In this document: piece by piece, positions 27,683-41,542 of the stretch
How the letters are laid out: every line of letters starts with the position of its first letter
Position numbering within the stretch: the stretch's first letter is position 1
Assembly: GCF_014174275.1 (NCBI RefSeq)
Contig: NZ_JABEQK010000007.1
Span: forward strand, 62,001 to 126,000
Direction: 5' to 3'
Origin: Gluconacetobacter takamatsuzukensis
Lineage (GTDB): Bacteria > Pseudomonadota > Alphaproteobacteria > Acetobacterales > Acetobacteraceae
DNA length: 64,000 bases
Notes under the pieces: generated by a model
What the model was told of the DNA's origin: nothing
Seen by the model: only the letters and a program-made list of their open reading frames with translations
Database searches by the model: none
Translations under genes and position numbers: made by a program

Positions 27683-29242
27683 ATGGAGCCTTCCGTGCAC
27701 AAAGATTTTTCGAAATGCCATGATGTCGTCATTGCCGGCGCCGGTCCCGTCGGCCTGTTTCTGGCCGGCGAGCTGGCCCTCGCGGGCTGTTCGGTCCTGG
27801 TGCTGGAGCAGGCGCCGCAGGCCGGCTCCCCGCTGAAGGACCTGCCGTTCGGCCTGCGCGGCCTTTCGGCGGCAACCATGGACAGCCTCGACCGGCGCGA
27901 CCTGCTGGCCGTCCTCCAGGCACGCGGCGCCGACCGCGACATTCCCGCCACGGCGCACTGGATGCAGCAAGGCCGCCGCCCCGCCGGTCATTTCGCCGGC
28001 ATCCCGTTCTTCCACGACCGGATCGACAGCGCGACCTGGCCCTATCGCCTGCCCGGGCCCACAGGCGGCATGGCATCCGACATGACCAGCATCGAAACCG
28101 TGCTGGCCCAACGCGCAACGGCCATGGGTGCCGAAATCAGGCGCGGCTGCGGCGTGGAGACCGTCACGCAGTCGGAAACAGGCATCGGCATCCGCACCAG
28201 CGGCGGAACGGTCGAGGCACGCTGGCTCGTGGGCTGCGACGGCGGCCGCAGCACGGTACGCAAGGCGGCCGGCATCGGCTTCACCGGCACCGCGCCGGAA
28301 CTGACCGGCTACGCGGCAGAGGTCGAACTGGCCGACCCGGACAAACTCAAGCCCGGCCGCCACCATACCGCGACGGGCCTCTACACCTACGCGCCCCCCA
28401 GCCTGGTCGCGATGGTCGATTTCGACGGCGGCGCGTTCCATCGCACCCAGCCCGTCACGCGCGATCATATCCAGGTCGTGCTGCGCAAGGTCTCCGGCAC
28501 CGACGTCACGGTAACGGCGCTCAGGCTCGCCACGACCTGGACCGATCGCGCCTGCCAGGCGACCGACTACCGCCGGGGGCGGATAATGCTCGCGGGCGAC
28601 GCCGCCCATATCCACGCGCCCCTGGGCGGGCAGGGCCTCAATCTCGGACTGGGCGACGCGATCAATCTCGGCTGGAAACTCGCCGCTACGATCCGGGGCG
28701 ACGCACCACCCGGCCTGCTCGACAGCTATGCGGCCGAACGCCATCCGGTCGGCGCACAGGTGCTCGACTGGTCGCGGGCACAGGTCGCCCTCATGCGCCC
28801 GGACCCCGGTGCGCGCGCGCTGGCCGCCATCATCCGCGACCTGGTCGAAACGCGCGACGGCGCAAGCTATTGTGCCGGTCGCGTCTGGGGCACCGGGCTC
28901 CGCCACGATCTCGGCGGCACCCATCCGCTGGTGGGCCAAAGCGCACCGGATTTCGCCCTGGCCGACGGCACAAGGCTGAACGAACGGCTCCGCACCGGGC
29001 GCGGCCTGTTCCTCGACTTCGCCGCCCGTCCCTCACGCCAGGCCCTCGCGGCTCGCTGGACTGGCCAAGTCGATTACATCGCCAGCGACGCGCAGGACCG
29101 TCTGGGCCTGAGCGCGATACTGGTACGACCCGACGGCCTCGTCGCCTGGGCCGGCGACCATGCCGACGACGATGAACAGGCATGCCAGGCCGGCTCGCGA
29201 TGGTTCGCAACCCCCTCCCGGCCCGGCACACCGCAACCCTGA
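27683..29242 (+). CDS. FAD-dependent aromatic monooxygenase (PheA/TfdB group)
   Basis: 519-residue class A flavoprotein hydroxylase. FAD-ADP motif VIAGAGPVGLFLAGELALAG (residues 15-34), the DG motif VGCDGGRSTVRKAAGI, and the ribityl-binding GD motif AGDAAHIHAPLGGQGLNLG, then a C-terminal thioredoxin-like domain typical of phenol hydroxylases (LADGTRLNERLRTGRGLFLDF). Such enzymes hydroxylate aromatic rings with NAD(P)H and O2; the substrate is not inferable. It stands alone between an MFS exporter and a convergent MFS/DMT pair. Confidence 0.88.
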   Translation: MEPSVHKDFSKCHDVVIAGAGPVGLFLAGELALAGCSVLVLEQAPQAGSPLKDLPFGLRGLSAATMDSLDRRDLLAVLQARGADRDIPATAHWMQQGRRPAGHFAGIPFFHDRIDSATWPYRLPGPTGGMASDMTSIETVLAQRATAMGAEIRRGCGVETVTQSETGIGIRTSGGTVEARWLVGCDGGRSTVRKAAGIGFTGTAPELTGYAAEVELADPDKLKPGRHHTATGLYTYAPPSLVAMVDFDGGAFHRTQPVTRDHIQVVLRKVSGTDVTVTALRLATTWTDRACQATDYRRGRIMLAGDAAHIHAPLGGQGLNLGLGDAINLGWKLAATIRGDAPPGLLDSYAAERHPVGAQVLDWSRAQVALMRPDPGARALAAIIRDLVETRDGASYCAGRVWGTGLRHDLGGTHPLVGQSAPDFALADGTRLNERLRTGRGLFLDFAARPSRQALAARWTGQVDYIASDAQDRLGLSAILVRPDGLVAWAGDHADDDEQACQAGSRWFATPSRPGTPQP

Positions 29243-29321: not shown

Positions 29322-30629
29322 CTACGCCCCGCTCTTCATCACGATCGGCCGCTCGACCAGCACGATCGACAACATGCCCGCCACCACCAGCGCCGCCGCG
29401 CACATATACCACGCAATGTCGAACCGCCCGGTATAAGACACGATATATCCGGTCACGATCGGCGCCAGCAGGCCCAGCGAATTGCTGAAGGTCAGCGTCA
29501 CGCCGGTCACGGCCCCGATCCGGCTTCCGTCTTCCACCAGATCGGTCAGCAGGGCGGTATTGGCCCCATTGGCGGCAATCAGGCAGCACAGCGAAAACGA
29601 CAGGACCAGCAGGATCGGCGTCATGGTGTGGAAATGCGGCAGCAACCCGATGCTCGCGGCCCCGGTGACGCACGCGGCGACGATAAAGCGGCGGCGCGGC
29701 GGGTGCAGATGGCGCCGGAACACGATGCGCTCGGCCACGCGCCCCACCACCACCGCCCCGGCGGCGGCGGCCAGGTAGCACAGCGCGGTGCGCGTCCCCG
29801 ACCCGGTCACATCGACCTGCAGCTCGTGGATCAGATAGAGCGGCATCCACGACATGACGAGGAAGTTGAGGTAATTCTGCGTGCACTGCACGGCAAGAAT
29901 GCCGAAGAACGAGCGCGAGCGGAACAGCGCCCGCACCTCGCCGACCGAAATCGGCGTCCGCGGCTGCCGCAGCACCCCCGCGTCGGGGTTGCGATAGACC
30001 AGCCACCACACCACCGCCCAAACCAGCCCGATCACGCCGAGCAGGATGAATTCCAGCCGCCAGCCGAACAGCGCGATCAGATAGGCCCCCGCGATGGTCC
30101 CGCCCGCCAGCCCAAGCTGCATGCCGGTCAGCAGCACGGTCATCACCGACCCGCGCTCCTTCGGCAGCGCCCAGTTCCGCACGACGGTCGCCCCCACGCC
30201 GAAGGTCGGCGCCTCGCCCACGCCCAGCAGCACGCGGGTCATCAGGAACTGCGAGATATTCTGCACCATGCCGCCCAGCAGCATCGCGCACGACCACAGC
30301 GCGACCGCGACACTGCCCACCAGCCGCGCACCGACCATGTCCAGCACGATCGTCGACGGCAGGTTCAACAGAAAATACGACCAGAGGAAACTGGACGAAA
30401 CCCAGCCCATCTCGACCGGCGTCAGCGAAAACTCCTTCCCCAGCGCCGGCAGCGCGATCGACAGCGCCGCCCGGTCCCCATAGCTGATGACGTACATCAG
30501 GAACACGAGGCCGAAGAAGACATACCGCGCGGCATGCGGCCCCCGCGACGGCGCCGCGAAGGCGGCCGGGGCAGGCCTGTCGGCGGTTCCATCGGGGCCG
30601 GCAGGATGCGTGCTGGAGGCGGCGCTCAT
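29322..30629 (-). CDS. MFS transporter, anion:cation symporter (hexuronate/galactonate type)
   Basis: 435-residue 12-helix importer of the ACS family (ExuT/DgoT/GudP-like), which takes up organic anions with protons. RYVFFGLVFLMYVISYGDR and the SFLWSYFLLNLPSTIVLDM segment are family hallmarks, with VGEAPTFGVGATVVRNW in helix 4-5. ATG at 30629 overlaps the stop of the DMT gene (ATGA), so the two are one unit downstream of pxpBCA (31661). It may import the substrate of the pxp/acc system (inference from position). Confidence 0.87.
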   Translation of the reverse strand: MSAASSTHPAGPDGTADRPAPAAFAAPSRGPHAARYVFFGLVFLMYVISYGDRAALSIALPALGKEFSLTPVEMGWVSSSFLWSYFLLNLPSTIVLDMVGARLVGSVAVALWSCAMLLGGMVQNISQFLMTRVLLGVGEAPTFGVGATVVRNWALPKERGSVMTVLLTGMQLGLAGGTIAGAYLIALFGWRLEFILLGVIGLVWAVVWWLVYRNPDAGVLRQPRTPISVGEVRALFRSRSFFGILAVQCTQNYLNFLVMSWMPLYLIHELQVDVTGSGTRTALCYLAAAAGAVVVGRVAERIVFRRHLHPPRRRFIVAACVTGAASIGLLPHFHTMTPILLVLSFSLCCLIAANGANTALLTDLVEDGSRIGAVTGVTLTFSNSLGLLAPIVTGYIVSYTGRFDIAWYMCAAALVVAGMLSIVLVERPIVMKSGA

Positions 30630-31546
30630 GACGGCGTTCCTTCGACGGGGGTGGAGGGCAGGGCGGGGGCAGGGCGCTGCGGCCGGTCATGGCGCAACAT
30701 CCACACCCCGGACCCGACGATCAGCAGGCCGCCCGCCAGCATGGCCAGGCCCGGGATCTCCCCGAACCCCAGCCAGCCGATCAGCGCGGCCCACAGCAGC
30801 CCGGAATAGGCAAACGGCCCGATGGCCGACACCTGGGCCGAGGCAAAGGCCTCGGTCTGCAAGACCTGGGCGATCCCGGCAAAGGCCCCCACCGCGACCA
30901 GGCACAGCGCATCGCCCATCTGCGGCGTGGTCCAGATGAAGGGCAGCGGCATCGCGGTGGCGATCGTCATCAGGATCGCCTGCCACAGGGCAATCGTGGT
31001 GCTCGATTCCGTGGCCGACAACTGGCGGATCTGCATGGTGGTCAGGGCCCCCACCGCGCCCTGCGCCAGCGCCACCAGATACGCCCACCCGGCAACGGCC
31101 CCGACCACCCCGACCTTGGGCACGTCCCGCCCCATGGCCACGACGACGACCCCGCAGAAGCCGAGAAACACCGCAATCCACCGATGCCGCGACGGCCGCT
31201 CGTGCAGCAGCGGAATCGACAGCAGCACCAGGAACAGCGGCTGGGTGTAGGACAGCACCTGCTGTTCGGCCAGCGGCAGCCGCGTCACCGTGACCACGAC
31301 CATGACCATGCTGGCCAGCCCGACGACCGAGCGCATCAGGTGCCCGCCGAAATGCCGGGTCTTCAGCGTCATCTTCGTCCGCGCCGCGATCATCATCACA
31401 AACGGCAGCGAAAACAGGTTCCGGAAGAAGATGATCTCCAGCACCGGCAGGCGCGGCCCCGTGACCTTCTGCAACCCGTTCACCATCGCGGTAAACAGCA
31501 TGGCCGAGGCCAGCAGCATCGCCCCACGCTTCAGGTCATGCCGCAT
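30626..31546 (-). CDS. DMT-superfamily (EamA) transporter
   Basis: 306-residue, 10-helix EamA transporter. Two tandem EamA halves are visible (about residues 10-140 and 150-290); the first carries FRNLFSLPFVMMI and the second AIGPFAYSGLLWAALIGWL near its end. The family exports or exchanges metabolites such as amino acids and purines. It lies 114 bp downstream of pxpA and overlaps the MFS gene, suggesting a transport module serving the same pathway. Substrate unknown. Confidence 0.87.
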   Translation of the reverse strand: MRHDLKRGAMLLASAMLFTAMVNGLQKVTGPRLPVLEIIFFRNLFSLPFVMMIAARTKMTLKTRHFGGHLMRSVVGLASMVMVVVTVTRLPLAEQQVLSYTQPLFLVLLSIPLLHERPSRHRWIAVFLGFCGVVVVAMGRDVPKVGVVGAVAGWAYLVALAQGAVGALTTMQIRQLSATESSTTIALWQAILMTIATAMPLPFIWTTPQMGDALCLVAVGAFAGIAQVLQTEAFASAQVSAIGPFAYSGLLWAALIGWLGFGEIPGLAMLAGGLLIVGSGVWMLRHDRPQRPAPALPSTPVEGTPS

Positions 31547-31660
31547 GCGCCGACACCGCCCCCGTCATTCCGGATTCATACCGTACCGATACCGCAATAA
31601 CGTGCGCGCGGGGTCCGGGCAGGGCAGGGCGGTCTGGCACGGTCCGATCCTTCCCCGGCG

Positions 31661-32431
31661 TCAGTCGGCCAGCAGATGCGCGGGCGTCAGCTCGGCACCC
31701 ACCGCCGCGATCTCGGCCCGCACGGCCTGCGCCAGCGCCAGCGATCCGGGCGTGTCGCTATGCACCAGGATCGAACGCGCCTTCACCGGCAGCCGCCCGC
31801 CATCGATGGTCTCCACCACGCCATCTTCCAGAAACCGGCGCACCCGCGCCCGGACCGAAGCCAGGTCGTGGATCACCGCCCCGGGCTGCCCGCGCGGCAC
31901 CAGCGCCCCCTCGGCCGTATAGGCCCGGTCGGCCAGGAACAGCGTCAGCACCCGCAGCCCCGCGGTCTGCGCCGCGCGCTCGCTCAACTGCCCGGGCATG
32001 CAGAAGACGGTCAGCTCGCGGTCCAGCGCGGCAATCACGCGCGCCAGCCGCAGGGCGCGCCCCTCATCCGCATTGGCCATGGTGCCGAAGGCGGCATGAT
32101 AGCTCACATGCGTCACCCGGTGCCCATGCCGCGCCGCGATGCCTTGCAGCGCCCCGATCTGGCAGGCCAGCATCGCCTCCATCTCGGTGTCGGAAACCGC
32201 CATGGGCCGGCGCCCGAACCCCATCAGGTCCGGCAGGCCCGGATGCGCGCCGATCCCCACCTGCCGCGCCTTCGCGGCCAGCACCGTGCGGTCCATGATG
32301 GCATAGTCCCCGGCATGGAACCCGCAGGCGATATTGGCCGAGGAAATCACATCCATCAGCCCGTCATCGTCGGCGATGCTCCAGCGGCCGAACCCTTCGC
32401 CCATGTCCGAATTCAGGTCGATCTTCATCAT
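31661..32431 (-). CDS. pxpA: 5-oxoprolinase subunit A (LamB/YcsF family)
   Basis: 256-residue PxpA, one of three subunits of the bacterial ATP-dependent 5-oxoprolinase that opens pyroglutamate to glutamate. Start KIDLNSDMGEGFGRW, SANIACGFHAGDYAIMDRTV, GAHPGLPDLMGFGRRPM and LVHSDTPGSLALAQAVRAEI are the family blocks, with conserved Asp/His for metal or substrate. ATG overlaps the pxpC stop (ATGA). Order is pxpB-pxpC-pxpA. In this locus the enzyme may use biotin-dependent chemistry through the divergent acc genes (see findings). Confidence 0.93.
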   Translation of the reverse strand: MMKIDLNSDMGEGFGRWSIADDDGLMDVISSANIACGFHAGDYAIMDRTVLAAKARQVGIGAHPGLPDLMGFGRRPMAVSDTEMEAMLACQIGALQGIAARHGHRVTHVSYHAAFGTMANADEGRALRLARVIAALDRELTVFCMPGQLSERAAQTAGLRVLTLFLADRAYTAEGALVPRGQPGAVIHDLASVRARVRRFLEDGVVETIDGGRLPVKARSILVHSDTPGSLALAQAVRAEIAAVGAELTPAHLLAD

Positions 32432-33429
32432 TTGGCTCCGGCTGCGCGCGGCGCCCGTCGCCGGGCAGATGCGCCATACAGGCCCACCATCATGCGCAGA
32501 TCATCGAGATACGCGGCGATCGGCCGCATGGCCGCCACCCCCTCATCATGGTCGCAGGGCCGAAAGCGGACCCGCCGGCCAATGCGCGCCTGCGCCAGCC
32601 GCCACAGATCGGCCTCGATCACGGCGGCAATCCGCGGATAGCCACCGGCCGTATTGGCATCGGCCAACTGCACGATGGGCGTCCCGGCCGGCGGCACCTG
32701 CACGATCCCGGGCACGATCCCGTAGGACCGCAGCTCGACCGGCCGCTCCAGCCCCAGCGCCTCGCCCTTCAGCCGATAGCCCACCCGGTCGCTCTGCGGC
32801 GTGATCTGCCATTCCGTGTCCCAGAACCGCGCGCGCGACGCCTCGGTGAACAGATGGAAATCGGTGGCCGGAATCGCCCGCAGCACCACCACCCCATCCC
32901 CCCCGTCGCAGGGCCGGCGCAACACGACCGAGGGCGGCACCGCCCCATAGCCCGACAAAGCCGGTCCCCCCGCCACGGCCAGCCTGTCGCCCGCCTCCAG
33001 CGGCCGGCCCGACAGCCCGCCGAACCCCCCGCGCAACTGCGTGCTGCGCGACCCCAGCACCACCGGCACATCCACCCCGCCCGAGACACAGACATAACCC
33101 CGCGCCCCCTGCCGGGGCGGCGACACCGTCAGCACCTGCCCGGCCGCCGCATGCACCGCCGCCCAGGGCAGGACGGCACAGCCATCAAGGTCCAGCGCCG
33201 CCTCGATGCCGGTCACGGCAAAACTGCACGCAGATTCGAAACGCAGCACGAACGGATAGGTCTGCACCTCGATCCCGGCCGCCCCGGACGCATTGCCCAG
33301 CAGGATATTGCCGATTTCCAGAGCCAGCGGATCCATGGCCCCCGACGTGCCCACCCCCAGCTGCCGATAACCCGGCCGCCCCAGATCCTGCACCGTATTC
33401 AGCGCCGGGCTTTCCAGAATCGTGATCAC
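32428..33429 (-). CDS. pxpC: 5-oxoprolinase subunit C (KipA / biotin-dependent carboxyltransferase-like)
   Basis: 333-residue PxpC/KipA, related to the C-terminal half of the urea amidolyase carboxyltransferase. ESPALNTVQDLGRPGYRQLG with the conserved Gln-Asp-x-Gly-Arg, GAMDPLALEIGNILLGN, then the RTNRVGYRLKG-like SDRVGYRLKGEAL and C-terminal TAGGYPRIAAVIEADLWRLA. GTG start at 33429 overlaps the pxpB stop (GTGA). The frame is open far upstream, but only this start begins the family sequence. The name's biotin-dependent label comes from homology; biotin itself is on another subunit. Confidence 0.92.
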   Translation of the reverse strand: MITILESPALNTVQDLGRPGYRQLGVGTSGAMDPLALEIGNILLGNASGAAGIEVQTYPFVLRFESACSFAVTGIEAALDLDGCAVLPWAAVHAAAGQVLTVSPPRQGARGYVCVSGGVDVPVVLGSRSTQLRGGFGGLSGRPLEAGDRLAVAGGPALSGYGAVPPSVVLRRPCDGGDGVVVLRAIPATDFHLFTEASRARFWDTEWQITPQSDRVGYRLKGEALGLERPVELRSYGIVPGIVQVPPAGTPIVQLADANTAGGYPRIAAVIEADLWRLAQARIGRRVRFRPCDHDEGVAAMRPIAAYLDDLRMMVGLYGASARRRAPRAAGAK

Positions 33430-34115
33430 AGTTCGATACTTTCCGGATAGAAGCGGATGCGGTCCCCGATGGCGAACAGCGCCGGCGGCTCCCGCAGCGG
33501 GTCGAACAGCGCAACCTCGGCAAACCCGATCGAATTCCAGCCATTCGGCCCGGTCAGGGCGGAAATCCCCGCCTGCATGCCGCCGATCGTCACCGTCCCG
33601 GCCAGCATCTTCAGCGACGGCACCGCCTTGCGGGGGGTGGCGATGCGCGGGTCCAGCCCGTGCAGGTAGCCGAAGCCCGGCGCGCTCCCCAGCGCGCAGA
33701 CCGTGTATTCGCCCGCATGATGCAGCGCGATCACCTCGGCCGGCGACAGGCCGGCATGGTCCGCCACATGCGCCAGATCCTCGCCCAGCGCGCCGCCATA
33801 CTGCACGCCGATCTCGAACAGCCGCCCGGCAATATGCCGTTCGGGCAGCGTCTCCCACGCATGGCGCAGCCAGTCGGCCAAGATCCGGGGCTCCTCCGGC
33901 GGGGTGGAAAACACCAGCATCAGGTTGGTCACGCCGGGGATCAGCTCCGCAACGTCGCTGCGCGCACCGGCTTCTTCCATCAGCGCCCAGATCCGCCGCT
34001 GCCGGCCGAGCGTAAAGTCCCCCGGCGCCTCGAACAGCATCGCCCGGGTACCGATCATGCTGATGACGGGCCCATCGGCAACGGGGGCCGGATCGTGCAT
34101 CGTGTCCCTGCTCAC
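33426..34115 (-). CDS. pxpB: 5-oxoprolinase subunit B (KipI family)
   Basis: 229-residue PxpB/KipI. MIGTRAMLFEAPGDFTLGRQ near the N-terminus, EIGVQYGGALGEDLAHVADHAGL split around residue 105, and the signature FGYLHGLDPRIATPRK with the following GTVTIGGMQAGI. First gene of the leftward pxpBCA operon, its start 342 bp from the divergent SDR-accBC operon. An in-frame ATG five codons later is an alternative start. Works as a PxpB-PxpC complex in the known enzyme. Confidence 0.92.
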   Translation of the reverse strand: MSRDTMHDPAPVADGPVISMIGTRAMLFEAPGDFTLGRQRRIWALMEEAGARSDVAELIPGVTNLMLVFSTPPEEPRILADWLRHAWETLPERHIAGRLFEIGVQYGGALGEDLAHVADHAGLSPAEVIALHHAGEYTVCALGSAPGFGYLHGLDPRIATPRKAVPSLKMLAGTVTIGGMQAGISALTGPNGWNSIGFAEVALFDPLREPPALFAIGDRIRFYPESIEL

Positions 34116-34273
34116 CTTGCGCTGCCTCCAGCCCGATCGTCATTCATGCATCGTGGCGCGGCAGGCGGGATCTGAAACCGATATCGCAACGATATGGGGC
34201 AGATCTTCCCTGTCCGGCACCCGACCCTATGGCGATTTGCCGACCGCTCGCCAGAGCCATTTTCAGTGTGATG

Positions 34274-34331
34274 TCATCGGATAATCTTATGGCTCGGCCC
34301 CCCGATCCCTTCCATCGCATTATCTTATGAC
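34274..34331. promoter_or_regulatory. 20-bp direct repeat in the pxp/acc control region
   Basis: TCATCGGATAATCTTATGGC (34274-34293) and CCATCGCATTATCTTATGAC (34312-34331) agree at 16 of 20 positions, 38 bp (under four helical turns) start to start. They lie in the 342-bp region between pxpB and the SDR gene, which has no gene of its own. Probable regulator binding sites controlling one or both operons. Confidence 0.6.
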
Positions 34332-34348
34332 GCGAGAACGAACCGCTC

Positions 34349-34378
34349 TTGGCGCTCCGGTCGTTACGCTACTAGCAT
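34349..34378 (+). promoter_or_regulatory. Candidate promoter of the SDR-accB-accC operon
   Basis: TTGGCG (34349-34354), 18-bp spacer, TAGCAT (34373-34378), 80 bp before the SDR ATG and just downstream of the direct repeats. Confidence 0.4.
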
Positions 34379-34457
34379 CAAAAAACACCATGTCGGGCCG
34401 ACGCGCCACGATCCGCGCCGCGCGTCATTTTTCCTTGCAGGATCAGGATTTCAAGCA

Positions 34458-35213
34458 ATGAGCACCCAGCCCTACCGTACAGCCCTCGTCACCGGCGCGT
34501 CGTCCGGCATCGGTGCGGCGATCGTGGGCCGGCTGCAACAGGCCGGCATTACCGTCCACGCGGTCGCCCGCGACAAGGACCGCCTGGCCCGGCTGGCCGA
34601 GGACACCGGCTGCGTCCCCCACGCCCTCAGCGTCGCCGACCACGCCGCCATCGCGGCCCTGGCCGAGGAGATCGAGATCGATATCCTGGTCAACAATGCC
34701 GGCCAGTCCCGCACCGGCAACATCACCAACACCACGCCGGACGATATCGACGCGCTGATCGACGTCAATCTGCGCGCGGTCCTGCACCTGACCAACCTGA
34801 TCGTCCCCGGCATGGTCCGGCGCGATCGCGGGCATGTCGTCAATATCAGCTCGATCGCCGGCCATTACGCCTTCGCGGGCGGCAACACGGTCTACCACGC
34901 GACCAAGGCCGGCGTGCATTCCCTGTCGCAGCAACTGCGCTGCGACCTCTACGGCTCGCACATCCGCGTCACCGAAATCTCCCCCGCCCGGGTGGAAACC
35001 GAAGTCTTCGGCCGCCTGATCGGCGACATGGCAGAAGCCAAAAGGCGCTTCTTCGACGAATACGATTCCCTGCTGCCGGCCGACATCGCCGATTCCGTCG
35101 CCTTCGCCGTCCTCGCCCCGCAGCGGATGAATGTCAGCTTCATGGAGGTCCTGCCGACCATGCAGGTGGTCGGCGGCCTGAACTTCGCGAAGAAAACCCC
35201 CGGCGCGGCCTGA
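34458..35213 (+). CDS. SDR-family oxidoreductase (YdfG-like)
   Basis: 251-residue classical short-chain dehydrogenase. NAD(P)-binding TGASSGIGAAIVGRL (residues 13-27), NNAG at about 80, catalytic Ser in VVNISSIAG and YHATK with the Tyr-Lys pair. The RVTEISPARVETEVF segment resembles YdfG, which acts on 3-hydroxy acids and malonic semialdehyde. First gene of a rightward operon, 5 bp before accB. It could reduce or oxidise the product of the linked carboxylase/hydrolase pathway; the substrate is unproven. Confidence 0.88.
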   Translation: MSTQPYRTALVTGASSGIGAAIVGRLQQAGITVHAVARDKDRLARLAEDTGCVPHALSVADHAAIAALAEEIEIDILVNNAGQSRTGNITNTTPDDIDALIDVNLRAVLHLTNLIVPGMVRRDRGHVVNISSIAGHYAFAGGNTVYHATKAGVHSLSQQLRCDLYGSHIRVTEISPARVETEVFGRLIGDMAEAKRRFFDEYDSLLPADIADSVAFAVLAPQRMNVSFMEVLPTMQVVGGLNFAKKTPGAA

Positions 35214-35218
35214 CGCCA

Positions 35219-35686
35219 GTGGACATCCAGCAGCTCAGGCACCTGATCGACCTGCTCGCCCGCTCCCCGCTCCAGGAACTGGAGATCACGGAAGGCGGCC
35301 AGTCCATCCGCCTGACCCGTGGTCCGAGCGGGGGCACGACCGGGGCCGGGGCCGGGGCCGGGGCAGGGGCCGCGTCCGCCGATCCGGCCGCCGGAGCTGC
35401 CGGATCTCCCGCCCCCCCACCACAGGCCGCCCCGGCCCCGCCGCCCGAGGCCCCGCGCATCATCACGGCCCCCACCTACGGCGTCTTCCATCTCTCCCCC
35501 TCCCCGGGGACCCCGCCCTATGTCGCGGTGGGGCAGGATGTCCAGGCGGGCCAGCAGGTAGGACTGGTAGAAGCGATGAAAGTCTTCAACGCCGTCAAGG
35601 CCGCCCTGTCGGGCCGGGTCGCGCAGATCCTCGTCGAGGACGGCGCGGAAGTCGAGGCAGGCACCCCCCTGTTCCGCCTGGCATGA
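35219..35686 (+). CDS. accB: Biotin carboxyl carrier protein
   Basis: 155-residue BCCP. N-terminal helical domain (DIQQLRHLIDLLARSPLQEL), a Gly/Ala/Pro-rich linker (residues about 40-80, containing Gly-Ala repeats from a GGGGCC tandem), then the biotinyl domain with the biotin-accepting lysine in VEAMKVFN. GTG start at 35219, 5 bp after the SDR stop; accC overlaps its stop by 4 bp. The genome must also hold a housekeeping accB, so this is probably a pathway-specific carrier. Confidence 0.93.
   Translation: MDIQQLRHLIDLLARSPLQELEITEGGQSIRLTRGPSGGTTGAGAGAGAGAASADPAAGAAGSPAPPPQAAPAPPPEAPRIITAPTYGVFHLSPSPGTPPYVAVGQDVQAGQQVGLVEAMKVFNAVKAALSGRVAQILVEDGAEVEAGTPLFRLA
35342..35371 (+). repeat. In-frame GGGGCC hexanucleotide repeat in accB linker
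   Basis: Five units of GGGGCC (the fourth reads GGGGCA) encode alternating Gly-Ala in the BCCP linker. Unit length is a multiple of three, so copy changes alter linker length without a frameshift. Confidence 0.85.
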
Positions 35687-37047
35687 GCGCGCGCCGCTTC
35701 GACCGGGTGCTCATCGCCAATCGCGGCGAAATCGCCCTGCGCATCCAGCGCGCCTGCCGCGCCCTGGGGCTGGAAACGGTCGCCGTCCATTCCGAGGCCG
35801 ACGCCGAAAGCCGCCATGTCCGCCAGGCCGACATCGCCCTGTGCATCGGCCCCGCCCCGGCGGCCCGCTCCTATCTCGATGCCGAATCCCTGCTGCTGGC
35901 CGCCCGCGCCACCGGCGCCTCGGCCATCCACCCCGGCTACGGCTTCCTCTCGGAAAACGCGGCCTTCGCCGACGCGGTCGAGGATGGGGGCCTCACCTTC
36001 ATCGGCCCCACCGGCGCCTCCATCCGCATGATGGGCGACAAGATCACGGCCAAGCGCGCCATGCGCGATGCCGGCGTCCCCTGCGTCCCCGGCTCCGACG
36101 GCCCCCTGCCGCCCGAAATGGACGCCATCCACGCCATGGCGGCCCAGGTCGGCTTCCCCGTCATCGTCAAGGCCTCGGGCGGCGGCGGCGGACGCGGCAT
36201 GCGCGTGGTCTGGAACGCGGACGAGCTGGAACAGGCCGTCACCCTCACGGCCAAGGAAGCCCAGCAGGCCTTCGGCAACCCCACGCTGTATCTCGAACGC
36301 TTCATGCAGAAGCCCCGCCATATCGAAATCCAGGTCCTGTGCGACACGCACGGCACGGCCCTGTGGCTGGGCGCCCGCGACTGCTCCCTGCAACGGCGCC
36401 ACCAGAAGGTGCTGGAGGAAGCCCCGGCCCCCGGCATCTCCCCCGATATCATCGCCGATATCGGCGAACGCTGCGCCCAGGCCTGCCGCCGCATCGGCTA
36501 TCGCGGCGCCGGCACGTTCGAATTCCTCTACGAAGACGGCATCTTCGCCTTCATCGAGATGAACACCCGCGTCCAGGTGGAACACCCGATTACCGAGGCC
36601 ACCACCGGCATCGACATCGTCGCTGCCCAGCTCCAGATCGCCCAGGGCGAAAAACTGGCCATCCGCCAGCAGGATATCGCAACCCTCGGCCACGCGATCG
36701 AATGCCGCATCAATGCCGAGGATCCGCGCACCTTCATGCCGTCCCCCGGCCGCATCACCAGCTGGGACCTGCCGGGCGGCCCCGGCATCCGCATCGATAC
36801 CCATGTCACCGCCGGCTACACCGTCCAGCCCTATTACGACTCGCTGATCGGCAAGGTCATCGCCCACGGCGCCACCCGCCAGCAGGCCATCGCCCGCCTG
36901 CGCGTGGCCCTGGCCGAAATGCAGGTGCAGGGCGTCTCCACCAACATCCCCCTGCACCAGGACATCCTGGCCGACCCGCACTTCCAGCAAGGCGGCGTCG
37001 ACATCCATTATCTCGAACGCTGGCTCGCGGAGAGGGCAACCCCATGA
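35683..37047 (+). CDS. accC: Biotin carboxylase
   Basis: 454-residue ATP-grasp biotin carboxylase that carboxylates BCCP-biotin with bicarbonate and ATP. RVLIANRGEIALRIQRACRA start, ATP loop KASGGGGGRGMRV, IEMNTRVQVEHPITE with catalytic Glu/Arg, and the C-terminal domain. Full length for AccC. ATG overlaps the accB stop and its own stop overlaps the next gene (ATGA). With the neighbouring pxpC carboxyltransferase-like subunit it suggests a carboxylase other than acetyl-CoA carboxylase. Confidence 0.96.
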   Translation: MSARRFDRVLIANRGEIALRIQRACRALGLETVAVHSEADAESRHVRQADIALCIGPAPAARSYLDAESLLLAARATGASAIHPGYGFLSENAAFADAVEDGGLTFIGPTGASIRMMGDKITAKRAMRDAGVPCVPGSDGPLPPEMDAIHAMAAQVGFPVIVKASGGGGGRGMRVVWNADELEQAVTLTAKEAQQAFGNPTLYLERFMQKPRHIEIQVLCDTHGTALWLGARDCSLQRRHQKVLEEAPAPGISPDIIADIGERCAQACRRIGYRGAGTFEFLYEDGIFAFIEMNTRVQVEHPITEATTGIDIVAAQLQIAQGEKLAIRQQDIATLGHAIECRINAEDPRTFMPSPGRITSWDLPGGPGIRIDTHVTAGYTVQPYYDSLIGKVIAHGATRQQAIARLRVALAEMQVQGVSTNIPLHQDILADPHFQQGGVDIHYLERWLAERATP

Positions 37048-37475
37048 CCGGCAAGCCGCCCCTGCTCCCCGACCTCTCCACCCTCCCGGACGTCGCGGAA
37101 ATCGCCCAGATCACCACATGGCTGGCCGAGGCCGGCCTCGCCTCCATGGACCTGTCCAACGCGGCGGGCGCAAGGCTGCGCCTCACCGTCGCCCCATCGC
37201 CCGTCACGCCGCCGCCCGCCGCTCCGGCACCGGCCGAAACGATCACCGCCACCGCACCCTATTTCGGCCACCTCGCCCTGCGCCACCCGCTCCGGGCAGA
37301 GCCCTTCGCGCCCCTCGGCGCCACCGTGCGCAAGGGCGACACCATCGCGCTACTGACCCTCGATACGCTCCAGGTCCCCGTCACCGCACCAGCCGACGGC
37401 ATCGTGGCCGAAATTCTGGGGCAGGAGGGCGCGCTGGTCGGGTACGGGGCGGCGATCCTGAGTATCCGGCCGTGA
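37044..37475 (+). CDS. BCCP-like protein lacking the biotinyl lysine
   Basis: 143-residue protein with BCCP layout: N-terminal helical segment (LSTLPDVAEIAQITTWLAEAGL), Pro/Ala linker, and a C-terminal biotinyl/lipoyl-like barrel (LRAEPFAPLGATVRKGDTIA, then GIVAEILGQEGALVGYG). Where BCCP has EAMKV, this reads LDTLQVP, so no lysine is available for biotin. ATG overlaps accC's stop (ATGA). It may be a structural or docking partner for the carboxylase complex. A frameshift is unlikely because the fold continues to the natural end. Confidence 0.8.
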   Translation: MTGKPPLLPDLSTLPDVAEIAQITTWLAEAGLASMDLSNAAGARLRLTVAPSPVTPPPAAPAPAETITATAPYFGHLALRHPLRAEPFAPLGATVRKGDTIALLTLDTLQVPVTAPADGIVAEILGQEGALVGYGAAILSIRP

Positions 37476-37607: not shown

Positions 37608-38810
37608 TCAAACAAGCCCCCCAACGAATTCCGCAATCCGCCGGCACCCCTCCCGCAGCGTATCGGTATCCGTGGCATAGGAAATCCGAAAGAACGGGCT
37701 CATCCCGTACGCCGCACCCTGCACGCTGGCCACCTGCTGTTCTTCCAGCAGCGCCATGACAAAATCCGTATCGCTGTCGATCTTCCGGCCCCCGGCCGAA
37801 ACCTTGCCCATGCAGGCACCGATATCGGGATAGACGTAGAAAGCCCCCTGCGGCGTGTGGCAGTGCAGCCCGGGGATGGCATTCAGCAGCCCCACGACCA
37901 GGTCGCGCCGCGCCTGATATTCCGCCGCCCGCACCTTCAGGTAATCCTGCGGCCCGTCCAGCGCGGCGATGGCGGCCGCCTGGGCAATGGTGTTGATGCC
38001 GCTGGTGGCCTGCCCCTGCATGTTGTTCATGGCCGCGATCAGGTCGCGCGGGCCACCGCAGAAGCCGACGCGCCAGCCGGTCATGGCATAGCTCTTCGAC
38101 ACACCGTTCACCGTCAGCACCCGGTCCTTCAGGCGCGGCTCGATTTCCGCCAGCGTATGGAAGGCAAAATCGTCATAGATCAGATGTTCGTAGATATCGT
38201 CGGTCAGCACCCACACATGCGGGTGCTTCATCAGCACGGCGGCAATCTCTTCCAGGTCCCGGCGCGGGCAGCAGGCGCCGGTCGGGTTGTTGGGGAAGTT
38301 CAGCACCAGCCATTTGGTCCGGGGCGTGATGGCGGCATCCAGGTCCGCCGGCAGCAGCCGGAAATCATTGTCGGCCGGGCAGGGCACCTGCACGATCCGC
38401 GCGCCCCCCAGCCGGGCAATGTCGGCATAGCTGATCCAGTAGGGGGTGGGCAGCACCACCTCGTCACCCGGATTGCAGGTGGCCATCATGGCATTATAGA
38501 TGATCTGCTTGGCCCCGTTGGCCACCAGGATCTCGTCGAGCGCATAATCCAGATGATTGTCGCGCAGGAATTTCCGCTGCACGGCCGCCTTCAGGGCCGG
38601 CTTGCCGGCCTGCGGCGGATATTTGGTGTCCCCGCCCAGCGCGGCGGCAATGGCGGCATCGACCACATGGTCGGGCGTGGGAAAATCCGGTTCGCCGGAG
38701 GACAGGCTGACAATCCGCGCCCCCTGCGCCTTCAGCGCCGACGCCTTGTCCGTCATGGCGGCGGACGCCGAAATCGCAATCCCATTCAGTCGGTCTGCAA
38801 AGCCAGGCAT
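37608..38810 (-). CDS. Aspartate-type aminotransferase (class I)
   Basis: 400-residue PLP enzyme of the aspartate/prephenate aminotransferase Ib group. SLSSGEPDFPTPDHVVDAA, NFPNNPTGACCPRRDLEE, TDDIYEHLIYDDF, and lysine in VNGVSKSYAMTGWRVGF. The start at 38810 has GGAG about 11 bp upstream; an earlier in-frame Met would add 18 residues. It diverges from aspartase across 203 bp containing a perfect palindrome. Aminotransferase plus aspartase would interconvert oxaloacetate, aspartate and fumarate (inference). Confidence 0.93.
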   Translation of the reverse strand: MPGFADRLNGIAISASAAMTDKASALKAQGARIVSLSSGEPDFPTPDHVVDAAIAAALGGDTKYPPQAGKPALKAAVQRKFLRDNHLDYALDEILVANGAKQIIYNAMMATCNPGDEVVLPTPYWISYADIARLGGARIVQVPCPADNDFRLLPADLDAAITPRTKWLVLNFPNNPTGACCPRRDLEEIAAVLMKHPHVWVLTDDIYEHLIYDDFAFHTLAEIEPRLKDRVLTVNGVSKSYAMTGWRVGFCGGPRDLIAAMNNMQGQATSGINTIAQAAAIAALDGPQDYLKVRAAEYQARRDLVVGLLNAIPGLHCHTPQGAFYVYPDIGACMGKVSAGGRKIDSDTDFVMALLEEQQVASVQGAAYGMSPFFRISYATDTDTLREGCRRIAEFVGGLV

Positions 38811-38912: not shown

Positions 38913-38931
38913 CCATACAACTATTGTATGG
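38913..38931. promoter_or_regulatory. Perfect palindrome with ATAC-N7-GTAT core
   Basis: CCATACAA-CTA-TTGTATGG is a 19-bp perfect palindrome between the aminotransferase and aspartase genes. Its core ATAC-N7-GTAT is the recognition pattern known for LysR regulators such as BenM/CatM. A LysR gene lies at 40607-41542, beyond aspA. Confidence 0.75.
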
Positions 38932-39013
38932 TGAGGGGCGGCTCCGCCACCATTACGATGCAGATACGGTTCACCCGACGAACCGACCGGCCCCCACCCG
39001 AGGTACAGAATTC

Positions 39014-40480
39014 ATGGCGGACACGATACGCAACGACGACAGCGCCGCCCGCCCAGCCGCCTGCCGTATCGAGCGCGACCTGCTGGGCCCGGCCGAAATC
39101 CCCGCCGACGCCTTCTGGGGCGTCCATACCAGCCGGGCAATCGCCAATTTCCCCATCAGCGGCACCCCCATCGGCAGGTTTGCCGAACTGGTCCAGGCGC
39201 TGGCCATCGTCAAGCAGGCCGCCGCCCGCACCAACCACGCGCTGGGCGACCTGGACGGGGAACGCGCCGCGGCCATCGAGGCCGCCTGCATCCGCATCCG
39301 GCAGGACCGGCATTCTCACAGCCAGTTCGTCGTCGACGCCATGCAGGGCGGGGCGGGCACCTCGACCAACATGAACGCCAACGAGGTCATCGCCAACCTG
39401 GCGCTGGAGATCATGGGCCGGCCGAAGGGCGATTACGCCGCCCTCCACCCCAACGACCATGTCAACATGGCCCAGTCGACCAACGACGCCTATCCCACCG
39501 CCCTGCGCCTCGCCGCCCTGTTCGCGGTCGACCCCCTGCTGGACGCACTGGCGGCCCTGGCCGAGGCGCTGGACGCCAAGGCCCGGGAATTCGCCCCGAT
39601 CCTCAAGGTCGGCCGCACGCAGTTGCGCGACGCGGTGCCCATGACGCTGGGTCAGGAATTCGGCGCCTTCCGCAGCATGGTCCAGGCCGAAATCCGCAAC
39701 CTGCGCGCCCAGTCCGCCGCCTTCCTCCAGGTCAATCTCGGCGGCACCGCCATCGGCACCGGCATCAACACCCGCCCCGATCATGCGCGCCTCGTCACGG
39801 CGGAACTGGCCCGCCTGACCGGTCACCCGATCACATCCGCCCCCGATTTCATCGAGGCGACGTCCGATGTCGGCGCCTTCACCCAGTTTTCGGGCGCGCT
39901 GAAGCGGCTGGCCCTCAAACTGTCCAAGATCGCGGGCGACCTGCGCCTGCTCTCCAGCGGCCCGCGTGCCGGCCTGGGCGAAATCGTCCTGCCCGCCGTC
40001 CAGGCCGGCTCGTCGATCATGCCCGGCAAGATCAACCCGGTGATCCCGGAAATGGTCAGCCAGGTCGCCTACCTCGTCGCCGGGCACGATGTCACCATCA
40101 CCCTGTGCGCCGAAGGCGGCCAGCTCCAGTTGAATCCGTTCGAACCGATGATCAGCTATTGCCTGCTCTCGTCGATATCCCTGCTCACCCCGGCCATCGA
40201 CACGCTGCGCACCCGCTGCATCGCGGGGATTGCGGCCGACCGCGAACGATGCCGCGCACTATCCGACAACAGCCTCGGCGTCGTCACCGCCCTCGTCCCC
40301 GTGCTGGGGTACGAAACCTGCTCCGCCCTCGCCAGGCGTGCCCTGGCCGAAGGCAGCCGGATCGCCGACCTGGTGCTGGAAGAAGACCTGCTGTCGCGCG
40401 AAAGACTCACGGACCTCCTGAGCCCCGACCGGCTCACCAGCCCCAATCTCGGGAGCCTGAGCGTAGATGCGGACTGGTGA
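39014..40480 (+). CDS. aspA: Aspartate ammonia-lyase
   Basis: 488-residue fumarase/aspartase superfamily lyase, deaminating aspartate to fumarate and ammonia. CRIERDLLGPAEIPADAFWG start, AGTSTNMNANEVIANLALE (aspartase-like; fumarase reads GSGTQSNMN), HVNMAQSTNDAYPTA, and the mobile SS-loop signature GSSIMPGKINPVIPE. ATG at 39014 matches family N-termini. Distinguishing it from fumarase C rests on the AGTS motif and the K-INPV-PE variant, so aspartase is favoured but not proven. Confidence 0.88.
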   Translation: MADTIRNDDSAARPAACRIERDLLGPAEIPADAFWGVHTSRAIANFPISGTPIGRFAELVQALAIVKQAAARTNHALGDLDGERAAAIEAACIRIRQDRHSHSQFVVDAMQGGAGTSTNMNANEVIANLALEIMGRPKGDYAALHPNDHVNMAQSTNDAYPTALRLAALFAVDPLLDALAALAEALDAKAREFAPILKVGRTQLRDAVPMTLGQEFGAFRSMVQAEIRNLRAQSAAFLQVNLGGTAIGTGINTRPDHARLVTAELARLTGHPITSAPDFIEATSDVGAFTQFSGALKRLALKLSKIAGDLRLLSSGPRAGLGEIVLPAVQAGSSIMPGKINPVIPEMVSQVAYLVAGHDVTITLCAEGGQLQLNPFEPMISYCLLSSISLLTPAIDTLRTRCIAGIAADRERCRALSDNSLGVVTALVPVLGYETCSALARRALAEGSRIADLVLEEDLLSRERLTDLLSPDRLTSPNLGSLSVDADW

Positions 40481-40606: not shown

Positions 40607-41542
40607 TCAGGTGGCCTGCGTGCCCGGCCAGTTGCGCGACGTCGCCATGGCCCGCGCCAGATCGACCAGATGTTCCCGCACGGCGACCGAAGCCTCGGTT
40701 TCCGGCACCGTCTCGGGAATGCACAGCGACACGTCTTCCTGGATCACCGGGTTGCGCAGCGGGTGGATCTTCGACCGCCCGGGCACCACGATCCGGCTGG
40801 CGACCGACCAGGGCAGGATGGTACTGCCGATCCCCTGCGCAATCGCCTCCTGCAAGGTCGGCACCGCCTCGATCTCCGCGACGATATTGGGCACGAGCTG
40901 CTTGCGCAGAAACGCCATGTCGATCCGCTGGCGGACGAAATTGTGCCGCGGCGGCACAAGCAGCGGAATCTCGATGATGTCCGCAAGCTGCACCGCACCC
41001 GCGGAATCCTGCGGAAAATCCAGCGCTTCCGGCGCCAGAAGAAAAAAATCCTCCTTCATCAAGGGCGTAAACAAAACCCCCTTGATCGGCCCGGCCCCAT
41101 GGATCACCGCCATGTCCAGTCGCCCGGTCATGATCAGTTCGCTGTATATTTCGTCGAAACTCTCGGTCAGATGCAGCACCACCCCCGGCAGGCTGGTCCG
41201 CACCCGCTGGAGCAGATCGACCGCCAGCGTCGACCCGGCGCTATAGGGCGAAAGCCCGACGGAAACCTTCCCCACCAGCGGCCCCGCGCCAAGGGCAATC
41301 TCCGTCATCGCCCGGTCCAGCTGCTTGCTGATGGTCTGCGCGTGCCGGTACAGCTCCACCCCCGCCATCGTCGGCGTCACGCCGCTCTTGCTGCGGATCA
41401 CCAGTTTCTGCCGAAAGGTACTTTCCAGCGCCGCCAGCTGCTGGCTCAACGCGGGCTGGGCAATGTTCAGCAGGTCGGCAGCGCGGGAGATACTGCCGAG
41501 ATCTATAATTTTTACAAATGCCTGCAACCGTCTGATGTCCAA
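40607..41542 (-). CDS. LysR-family transcriptional regulator
   Basis: 311-residue LysR regulator. HTH MDIRRLQAFVKIIDLGSISR and AADLLNIAQPALSQQLAALE (residues about 20-40), followed by the typical effector-binding domain (GKVSVGLSPYSAGSTLAVDLL). Convergent with aspA and divergent from the second TonB receptor across 290 bp. Closest in style to Nac/Cbl-like regulators of nitrogen or sulfur metabolism. It is the nearest candidate to bind the ATAC-N7-GTAT site at 38913-38931. Confidence 0.92.
   Translation of the reverse strand: MDIRRLQAFVKIIDLGSISRAADLLNIAQPALSQQLAALESTFRQKLVIRSKSGVTPTMAGVELYRHAQTISKQLDRAMTEIALGAGPLVGKVSVGLSPYSAGSTLAVDLLQRVRTSLPGVVLHLTESFDEIYSELIMTGRLDMAVIHGAGPIKGVLFTPLMKEDFFLLAPEALDFPQDSAGAVQLADIIEIPLLVPPRHNFVRQRIDMAFLRKQLVPNIVAEIEAVPTLQEAIAQGIGSTILPWSVASRIVVPGRSKIHPLRNPVIQEDVSLCIPETVPETEASVAVREHLVDLARAMATSRNWPGTQAT

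Follow-up and report, generated by a model that had tools for sequence, protein, structure and literature searches.

A conserved Pxp/biotin hybrid gene cluster with a predicted non-biotinylated carrier subunit in Gluconacetobacter takamatsuzukensis

A 64,000-nucleotide stretch of the 3.78 Mb genome of Gluconacetobacter takamatsuzukensis (assembly GCF_014174275.1, contig NZ_JABEQK010000007.1, positions 62,001 to 126,000; hereafter the window) carries a divergent gene cluster in which relatives of the 5-oxoprolinase genes pxpA, pxpB and pxpC are combined with genes for biotin-handling proteins. From a shared control region, pxpB, pxpC, pxpA and two transporter genes run leftward, while genes encoding an SDR oxidoreductase, the biotin carboxyl carrier protein (BCCP) AccB, the biotin carboxylase AccC and a second, lysine-less BCCP-like carrier, here called BC2, run rightward. 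The cluster is a genuine unit, conserved yet little described, that unites Pxp and biotin proteins and includes a carrier subunit predicted to be non-biotinylated. The comparisons below establish the conservation of the gene set, the grouping of BC2 and the sustained selection on it, the loss of its biotinyl lysine, and the alteration of PxpA. With a confidence a little short of even, we propose that the products form one biotin-linked, amide-opening complex in which BC2 is a structural carrier, and that this complex serves the catabolism of a small amide or lactam to an amino-acid-like product.

The cluster was compared with pxpA loci (numbered L) from other genomes (numbered G). The PxpA profile (PF03746) was present in 35 of 150 genomes of the family Acetobacteraceae and in at least 149 of 398 genomes of the phylum, and 40 family stretches, 75 phylum stretches and five chosen ones were fetched. 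The phylum places were every second one among the score-ordered PxpA matches listed, so low-scoring PxpA proteins are under-represented there; one family place (G898:C92) is not among the 40. The comparison set comprised 119 pxpA loci, 115 taken by rule and four picked for their BC2 (L221-L224), and the chosen stretch L225, with an ordinary BCCP and AccC only, was left out. An accC gene lay inside the fetched stretch in 28 of the 40 family loci and 13 of the 75 phylum loci. It is thus common for a pxp cluster to include a biotin carboxylase of its own, and the concern raised in a preliminary description of this DNA, that homologous clusters might always lack acc genes, does not hold. Four phylum loci (L146, L147, L149 and L157) were tallied as having AccC without a lysine-bearing carrier since that carrier fell below the score cut, although EAMK carriers are present there. 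BC2 occurred in 26 of the 119 loci, 22 of which also held AccC and a lysine-bearing carrier (22 and 18, respectively, for the loci taken by rule alone). Within the family, 17 of the 28 accC-bearing loci also held BC2, and one further BC2 locus, on a 6 kb contig, was without accC. Named records with pxpABC, accB, accC and BC2 together came from Mesorhizobium, Terrarubrum, Bradyrhizobium, Agrobacterium, Burkholderia, Rhizobium phaseoli and five acetic acid bacteria; the Mesorhizobium and Burkholderia loci have no orthologue of the SDR gene. The position of the BC2 gene varies, adjoining accC in some loci and lying between pxpC and pxpA in others. Because the same set recurs in so many genomes, the grouping exceeds chance, and together with the shared control region this recurrence bears out the earlier proposal of one conserved unit.

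BC2 is made up of an AccB-like N-terminal part and a biotinyl-type sandwich. Its N-terminal part matched that of AccB in a local hhalign comparison (96%, E=1.3e-9) and its C-terminal part matched the C-terminal part of AccB (98.8%, E=5e-17), with cross-controls below 2%. A gapless alignment of the biotinyl domains sets EAMK opposite T105-L106-D107-T108 of the window BC2, which makes Thr108 the counterpart of the missing biotinyl lysine; the preliminary description had correctly reported the lysine as missing, and its pairing of LDTLQ with EAMK was about two residues off. An AlphaFold model of moderate quality (mean pLDDT 70.2, pTM 0.46) shows strands 100-106 and 109-114 flanking a turn at D107-T108, and its best Foldseek matches are BCCPs. 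Across 46 rows classed as BC2 by the missing motif, several from loci fetched twice, the residue at the place of the lysine is Pro in 21, Thr in seven, Ser in six and another in 12, and in no case Lys. A glutamine mimicking the lysine at the biotin place was ruled out, since the window has Thr at the aligned position and the other rows most often have Pro, Thr or Ser.

Because classing BC2 by its motif is circular, trees of the carriers serve as the real test. In a first tree of 155 carriers, built on only 82 columns and with several long branches, 37 of 38 lysine-less rows fell on one side of a branch with support 99/98, and the 117 lysine-bearing rows and L210 fell opposite. In a second tree, to which one Rahnella row was added, a branch supported 98/98 separated all 39 lysine-less rows from the 117 lysine-bearing ones, and the BC2 group contained no lysine-bearing member. 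The carrier of L210, outside the BC2 group in the first tree and inside it in the second, is of unsure placement, and several BC2 rows, those of Burkholderia, L207 and L217 among them, sit on long branches. Both trees leave out the lipoyl-type loci L030 and L040, duplicate rows and segments shorter than 60 amino acids. For ten BC2 pairs within the Acetobacteraceae, the ratio of nonsynonymous to synonymous substitution rates (dN/dS) was about 0.11-0.31, similar to that of AccB and above that of AccC, and these estimates show BC2 to be under purifying selection there. The positions invariant among 14 aligned members include P82, G133 and G135. To judge from these comparisons, BC2 is an old conserved protein and not a decayed accB copy. 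A BC2 profile was rejected as a stand-alone detector: at about 54-85 bits it mixes ordinary BCCPs (G744, 84.6, lysine-bearing) with true BC2 (G616, 64.8), and its tallies were for that reason not used as counts. Neither BC2 nor the SDR protein was matched by PADLOC. As for existing annotations, BC2 is a 'hypothetical protein' in Rhizobium phaseoli (L227:12693-13118) and an 'acetyl-CoA carboxylase biotin carboxyl carrier protein subunit' in Rahnella (L226:11580-12020), despite the missing biotin motif. Paralogous BC2 occurs in the genus of the window (L044, L045, L106), and in L106 it accompanies pxp genes, AccC and an EVMK carrier, with the PxpA triad described below kept and without the SDR gene.

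The second departure concerns PxpA. At the places of a Lys-Glu-Cys triad, the window protein has S110, L164 and L222. The triad is kept in all 92 sampled PxpA proteins outside the BC2 lineage and in all four solved relatives, E. coli YbgL among these, and its residues (110, 164, 222) are absent from 32 of the 38 PxpA rows of BC2 loci, two of which are present twice. These residues are presumably required for acting on 5-oxoproline, and their loss would argue for another substrate or mechanism. The profile scores agree in part: PxpB passes its equivalog cut-off (Table 1), PxpA reaches the subfamily NF003814 (315.3 against 226) and none of three PxpA equivalogs, and PxpC stays below the 5-oxoprolinase equivalog NF045499 (286.3 against 500). 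The earlier suggestion of 5-oxoproline as a possible substrate is therefore not supported by PxpA and PxpC, although PxpB passes, and it is doubtful that the label of PxpABC as a 5-oxoprolinase can simply be transferred to the window cluster. Position 258 of the PxpC slice is Gln in 31 of 33 BC2-type proteins and Leu in 54 of 59 of the alone type, which may mark the lineage or be a specificity residue. The structure model of PxpC is poor (pLDDT 49), so its fold matches carry little weight. One locus, L124 (G002), belongs to the BC2 lineage by its PxpC and has neither BC2 nor accC in its stretch; its PxpA reads S-L-L. It also has Gln in PxpC, and transporter and LysR homologues lie nearby.

The genes that accompany BC2 are conserved with it. 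With cuts set by us, and with the 26 BC2 loci including the four chosen for BC2, an SDR orthologue (at least 250 bits) and an aminotransferase homologue (at least 45% identity) were each found in 18 of 26 BC2 loci against none of the 93 other pxpA loci. The same contrast was seen for an ABC-transporter ATPase (11 against none), an RraA-type protein (five against none) and an aspartate ammonia-lyase-like homologue (at least 55%; five against none), and, against one of the 93 others in each case, for homologues of the EamA/DMT transporter (at least 30%; nine), the MFS transporter (at least 45%; eight) and the LysR regulator (at least 40%; 11). The conserved SDR, aminotransferase, ABC-transporter ATPase and RraA-type neighbours would suggest an amino-acid-like product, and the RraA-type aldolase genes and the aminotransferase prompt a guess at 4-substituted 5-oxoprolines as candidate substrates.

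The two arms appear to share their control region in relatives as well. The direct repeat given earlier as 16/20 is real and consists of two copies of 22 nt (34275-34296 and 34313-34334) that are 82% identical. Across eight aligned intergenic regions of related loci, the first ATAATCTTATG box does not vary, and the second has diverged in three of the eight, with a spacing of 37-39 bp wherever both copies were found. This conserved intergenic repeat upholds the earlier view of two arms running from one control region.

In the mechanism that we consider, AccC would carboxylate biotin on AccB, as their family features indicate, and PxpB and PxpC would form a urea-carboxylase-type carboxyltransferase to which the carboxyl group is passed and by which the amide is activated. 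The altered PxpA could then open the activated amide, while BC2, predicted to be unable to hold biotin, may serve assembly or docking by linking PxpBC to the biotin carboxylase part, by analogy with plant BADC in acetyl-CoA carboxylase. The SDR protein and the aspartate-type aminotransferase, given their conserved linkage, would process the product downstream. The earlier idea of a carboxylate-then-hydrolyse pathway is retained as far as one conserved unit, commonly with its own biotin carboxylase, is concerned; 5-oxoproline as its substrate is unsupported, and its carboxylation-first order is hypothetical.

The nearest known analogue of BC2 is the plant BADC protein of plastid acetyl-CoA carboxylase. 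PMC11926652 describes BADC as derived from BCCP, devoid of a biotinylation motif, 25-30% identical to BCCP and occurring with biotin carboxylase and BCCP, and reports a proposal that it helps to assemble these two. Like BADC, BC2 is BCCP-derived, lacks the biotinylation motif and is encoded with biotin carboxylase and BCCP, in 22 of 26 loci. Unlike BADC, it is bacterial, has PxpABC and no acetyl-CoA carboxyltransferase as its linked partner, and stands beside AccBC in most, not all, loci. The likeness is one of analogy.

Several observations weigh against the biotin-linked complex. BC2 was kept in L207 and L217, which are not cut by contig ends and whose fetched DNA lacks both accB and accC, and on a Rahnella sikkimica plasmid (L226), where 22.7 kb holding BC2, PxpABC, SDR and aminotransferase genes gave no match to AccB or AccC; a dedicated AccBC is thus not indispensable. 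PxpA and PxpC of Rahnella carry features of the BC2 lineage. The genomes that hold L207 and L217 (G616 and G758) yielded no further dedicated AccC at E<=1e-60, the search giving one at 60% identity and matches within open frames some 1200 residues long. BC2 occurred in four of the 75 phylum loci, with accC alongside in one of the four. Six of the 38 BC2 rows (L015, L019, L106, L170, L210, L221) keep the Lys-Glu-Cys triad, so BC2 and the altered PxpA are not always paired; all six are without an SDR orthologue, and 28 of the 32 triad-less rows have one. In the PxpC tree, the BC2 lineage grouped (100/99) with clusters that lack accC. Most of these come from family f199, one pxp locus of which is 73% identical to E. 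coli pxpABC-nei and which looks enterobacterial by this resemblance. The other accC-associated PxpC proteins were spread over several groups, apart from the BC2 lineage. Moreover, B. subtilis PxpABC has reportedly been reconstituted without biotin proteins. PxpB and PxpC show ATPase activity according to PMC8453981, a study of caprolactamase.

Such observations bear on a second explanation, in which BC2 is primarily a subunit of PxpABC, ATP activates the amide at PxpBC without biotin, and accBC is optional or replaced by a housekeeping pair. The three uncut loci with BC2 and without accB and accC speak for it, as do the frequent position of BC2 between pxpC and pxpA and the grouping of the lineage PxpC with accC-less, mostly f199, clusters. 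We nevertheless regard it as unlikely, if worth serious attention, since AccC and a lysine-bearing carrier accompany BC2 in all but four loci, two of these exceptions (L120 and L170) are cut short by contig ends, BC2 resembles AccB in its N-terminal part, and the BC2 proteins of L207 and L217 lie on long branches. On this balance, the cluster is likely to be biotin-dependent. The proposal in the preliminary description that BC2 is a non-catalytic scaffold gains from its being an old conserved protein and is weakened by the same three loci.

A different role for BC2 would be that of a competitive inhibitor or regulator which takes the place of biotinylated AccB on AccC and thereby tunes flux. 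BC2 has retained both carrier domains, and BADC was once proposed as an inhibitor by some authors (PMC11926652); however, the same paper favours an assembly role for BADC, and in the window the BC2 gene overlaps accC by four bases, so BC2 is made together with AccC. This regulatory role appears rather improbable. About equally improbable is the view that an ordinary 5-oxoprolinase lies beside an independent second acetyl-CoA carboxylase pair, by accident or merely through co-regulation. Such a view would fit PxpB passing its equivalog, PxpA a subfamily and AccC its own cut-off, but it is at odds with a linkage conserved in many genomes, with the shared control region, with the triad-less PxpA and with the sub-threshold PxpC; in addition, no accA or accD is annotated beside the Mesorhizobium, Terrarubrum, Bradyrhizobium, Agrobacterium and Burkholderia clusters (the genome of the window was not searched for either). 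That BC2 is a functionless, decaying duplicate of accB, as its missing lysine might suggest, can be set aside as extremely improbable in view of one supported group across many genera, the low dN/dS and the invariant proline and glycines.

When compared to known systems, the favoured biotin-linked complex combines elements of several. The window has the same three protein families as the PxpABC 5-oxoprolinase of E. coli (YbgJKL) and Corynebacterium glutamicum (pxpTABC; PMC13274462), and the best solved relative of its PxpC is E. coli YbgK (229 bits). In contrast to that enzyme, the window adds AccB, AccC, BC2, the SDR protein and the aminotransferase, has S-L-L for K-E-C in PxpA, and has Gln in PxpC where YbgK has Leu. 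Its PxpC is also related to the carboxyltransferase domain of urea carboxylase/urea amidolyase (3va7, 5i8i; 98 bits), whose other activities AccC and AccB would supply; unlike urea amidolyase, the window has separate subunits, a LamB_YcsF-type PxpA replacing allophanate hydrolase, and an extra lysine-less carrier. The chain list of the solved entry 9yx5, probably from Mycobacterium smegmatis to judge by the sister entries 9yx0-9yx2 and by 3mml, holds the biotin carboxylase AccA3 together with PxpB/PxpC relatives ('allophanate hydrolase' subunits 1 and 2), which speaks for the proposed complex. In contrast to the window, AccA3 forms a single chain of 598 residues that ends in a BCCP-like part, and this was the only chain of 9yx5 matched by the BC2 profile. 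Other accC-associated pxp clusters (PxpA-BCCP-AccC-PxpC and PxpABC-AccC-BCCP) resemble the window in having their own biotin carboxylase and lysine-bearing carrier, and differ in their single carrier, intact triad and other PxpC groups. Nine loci (L108, L121, L123, L126, L133, L212, L214, L215, L219) represent a second pxp type with PxpA, one EVMK carrier, AccC and PxpC and without BC2, except that no PxpC was found in the stretch of L214. A further set (L118, L129, L131, L136, L137, L139, L146-L149, L151, L153, L157) has PxpA, PxpB, PxpC, AccC and one lysine-bearing carrier, with PxpC of other groups. In PMC8453981, PxpA is called a probable metal-dependent lactamase, PxpABC is said to be without similarity to acetone-type ATP-dependent carboxylases, and carboxylation is offered as one option for caprolactam; PMC9818992 names PxpB in one table line for G. 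entanii. A search by titles and beginnings of abstracts in the mostly open-access literature revealed no publication describing the cluster or a bacterial BCCP without the lysine.

A bolder extension of this proposal, which we hold only tentatively and with clearly less confidence, is that the cluster encodes a new class of biotin-dependent catabolic enzyme, in which the PxpA active site was rebuilt for a carboxylated substrate other than 5-oxoproline and assembly relies on a bacterial non-biotinylated carrier of single origin, since dispersed among alpha-, beta- and gammaproteobacteria, in part via plasmids. If so, many '5-oxoprolinase subunit PxpA' and 'acetyl-CoA carboxylase' labels in acetic acid bacteria and rhizobia would belong to another pathway, and bacteria would possess their own counterpart of plant BADC in a small system amenable to purification and testing. 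The PxpB/PxpC fold, related to urea carboxylase, would also be tied to real biotin chemistry, and the presence or absence of accBC and the retention or loss of the triad would offer a natural contrast for learning how such enzymes activate amides.

Table 1. Features of the Pxp/biotin cluster and its surroundings, with positions in the window
Feature	Position	Strand	Evidence or remark
MFS transporter	29322..30629	-	PF07690 (MFS_1) E=1.3e-53
EamA/DMT transporter	30626..31546	-	PF00892 (EamA) E=5.7e-25
pxpA-like (LamB_YcsF), S110/L164/L222 replacing K-E-C triad	31661..32431	-	PF03746 E=1.7e-86, 290 bits
pxpC (CT_A_B half)	32428..33429	-	PF02626 E=8.2e-87; TIGR00724 292.6 vs cut-off 230.2
pxpB (CT_C_D half of urea-carboxylase-type carboxyltransferase)	33426..34115	-	CT_C_D E=1.2e-59; TIGR00370 168.6 vs cut-off 145.55
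Tandem 22-nt repeat, divergent control region, candidate operator	34275..34334	.	kept in relatives
SDR oxidoreductase	34458..35213	+	adh_short E=2.7e-44; tied to most of BC2 lineage
accB, BCCP with EAMK, predicted biotinylatable	35219..35686	+	Biotin_lipoyl E=3.1e-16
accC, biotin carboxylase, second genome copy	35683..37047	+	TIGR00514 661 vs 626.5; NF006367 704.6 vs 597
BC2, lysine-less BCCP-like carrier, 143 aa	37044..37475	+	Pfam Biotin_lipoyl E=6.8e-9
Aspartate-type aminotransferase, convergent with BC2, beyond the span first described	37608..38807	-	best NCBIfam match PRK06107 aspartate transaminase 502.5, below cut-off 617
Aspartate ammonia-lyase-like gene, membership uncertain	38924..40480	+	PRK12273 675.5 vs 510; beside unit in part of family
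LysR-type regulator, candidate regulator, membership uncertain	40607..41542	-	open reading frame; 42% identical to LysR gene of locus L217

The eight genes of the preliminary description and their divergent arrangement were confirmed by position and protein family (Table 1); the start of pxpC was set in this analysis at the codon overlapping the pxpB stop. AccB of the window carries the biotinyl lysine (EAMK) and scored slightly below the TIGR00531 cut-off (114.7 against 115.2 bits). The genome holds two AccC proteins at E<=1e-60, the cluster copy and one 60% identical to it (G000:C2:207416), and the cluster accC was accordingly ruled out as the sole copy. The unit reaches past position 37475, since the aminotransferase gene is conserved with BC2 loci and belongs to it. 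On the other side, the flavin adenine dinucleotide (FAD) monooxygenase gene at 27683-29242 was ruled out as a member, no homologue (at least 50%) having been found in the 26 BC2 loci; it adjoins the MFS gene and is related to a rifampin monooxygenase model, at 364 bits far below the cut-off of 800. Finally, in an Acetobacter pasteurianus record (L010:3378-4386), the PxpC match came in two tblastn pieces, perhaps through a frameshift or a small insertion.

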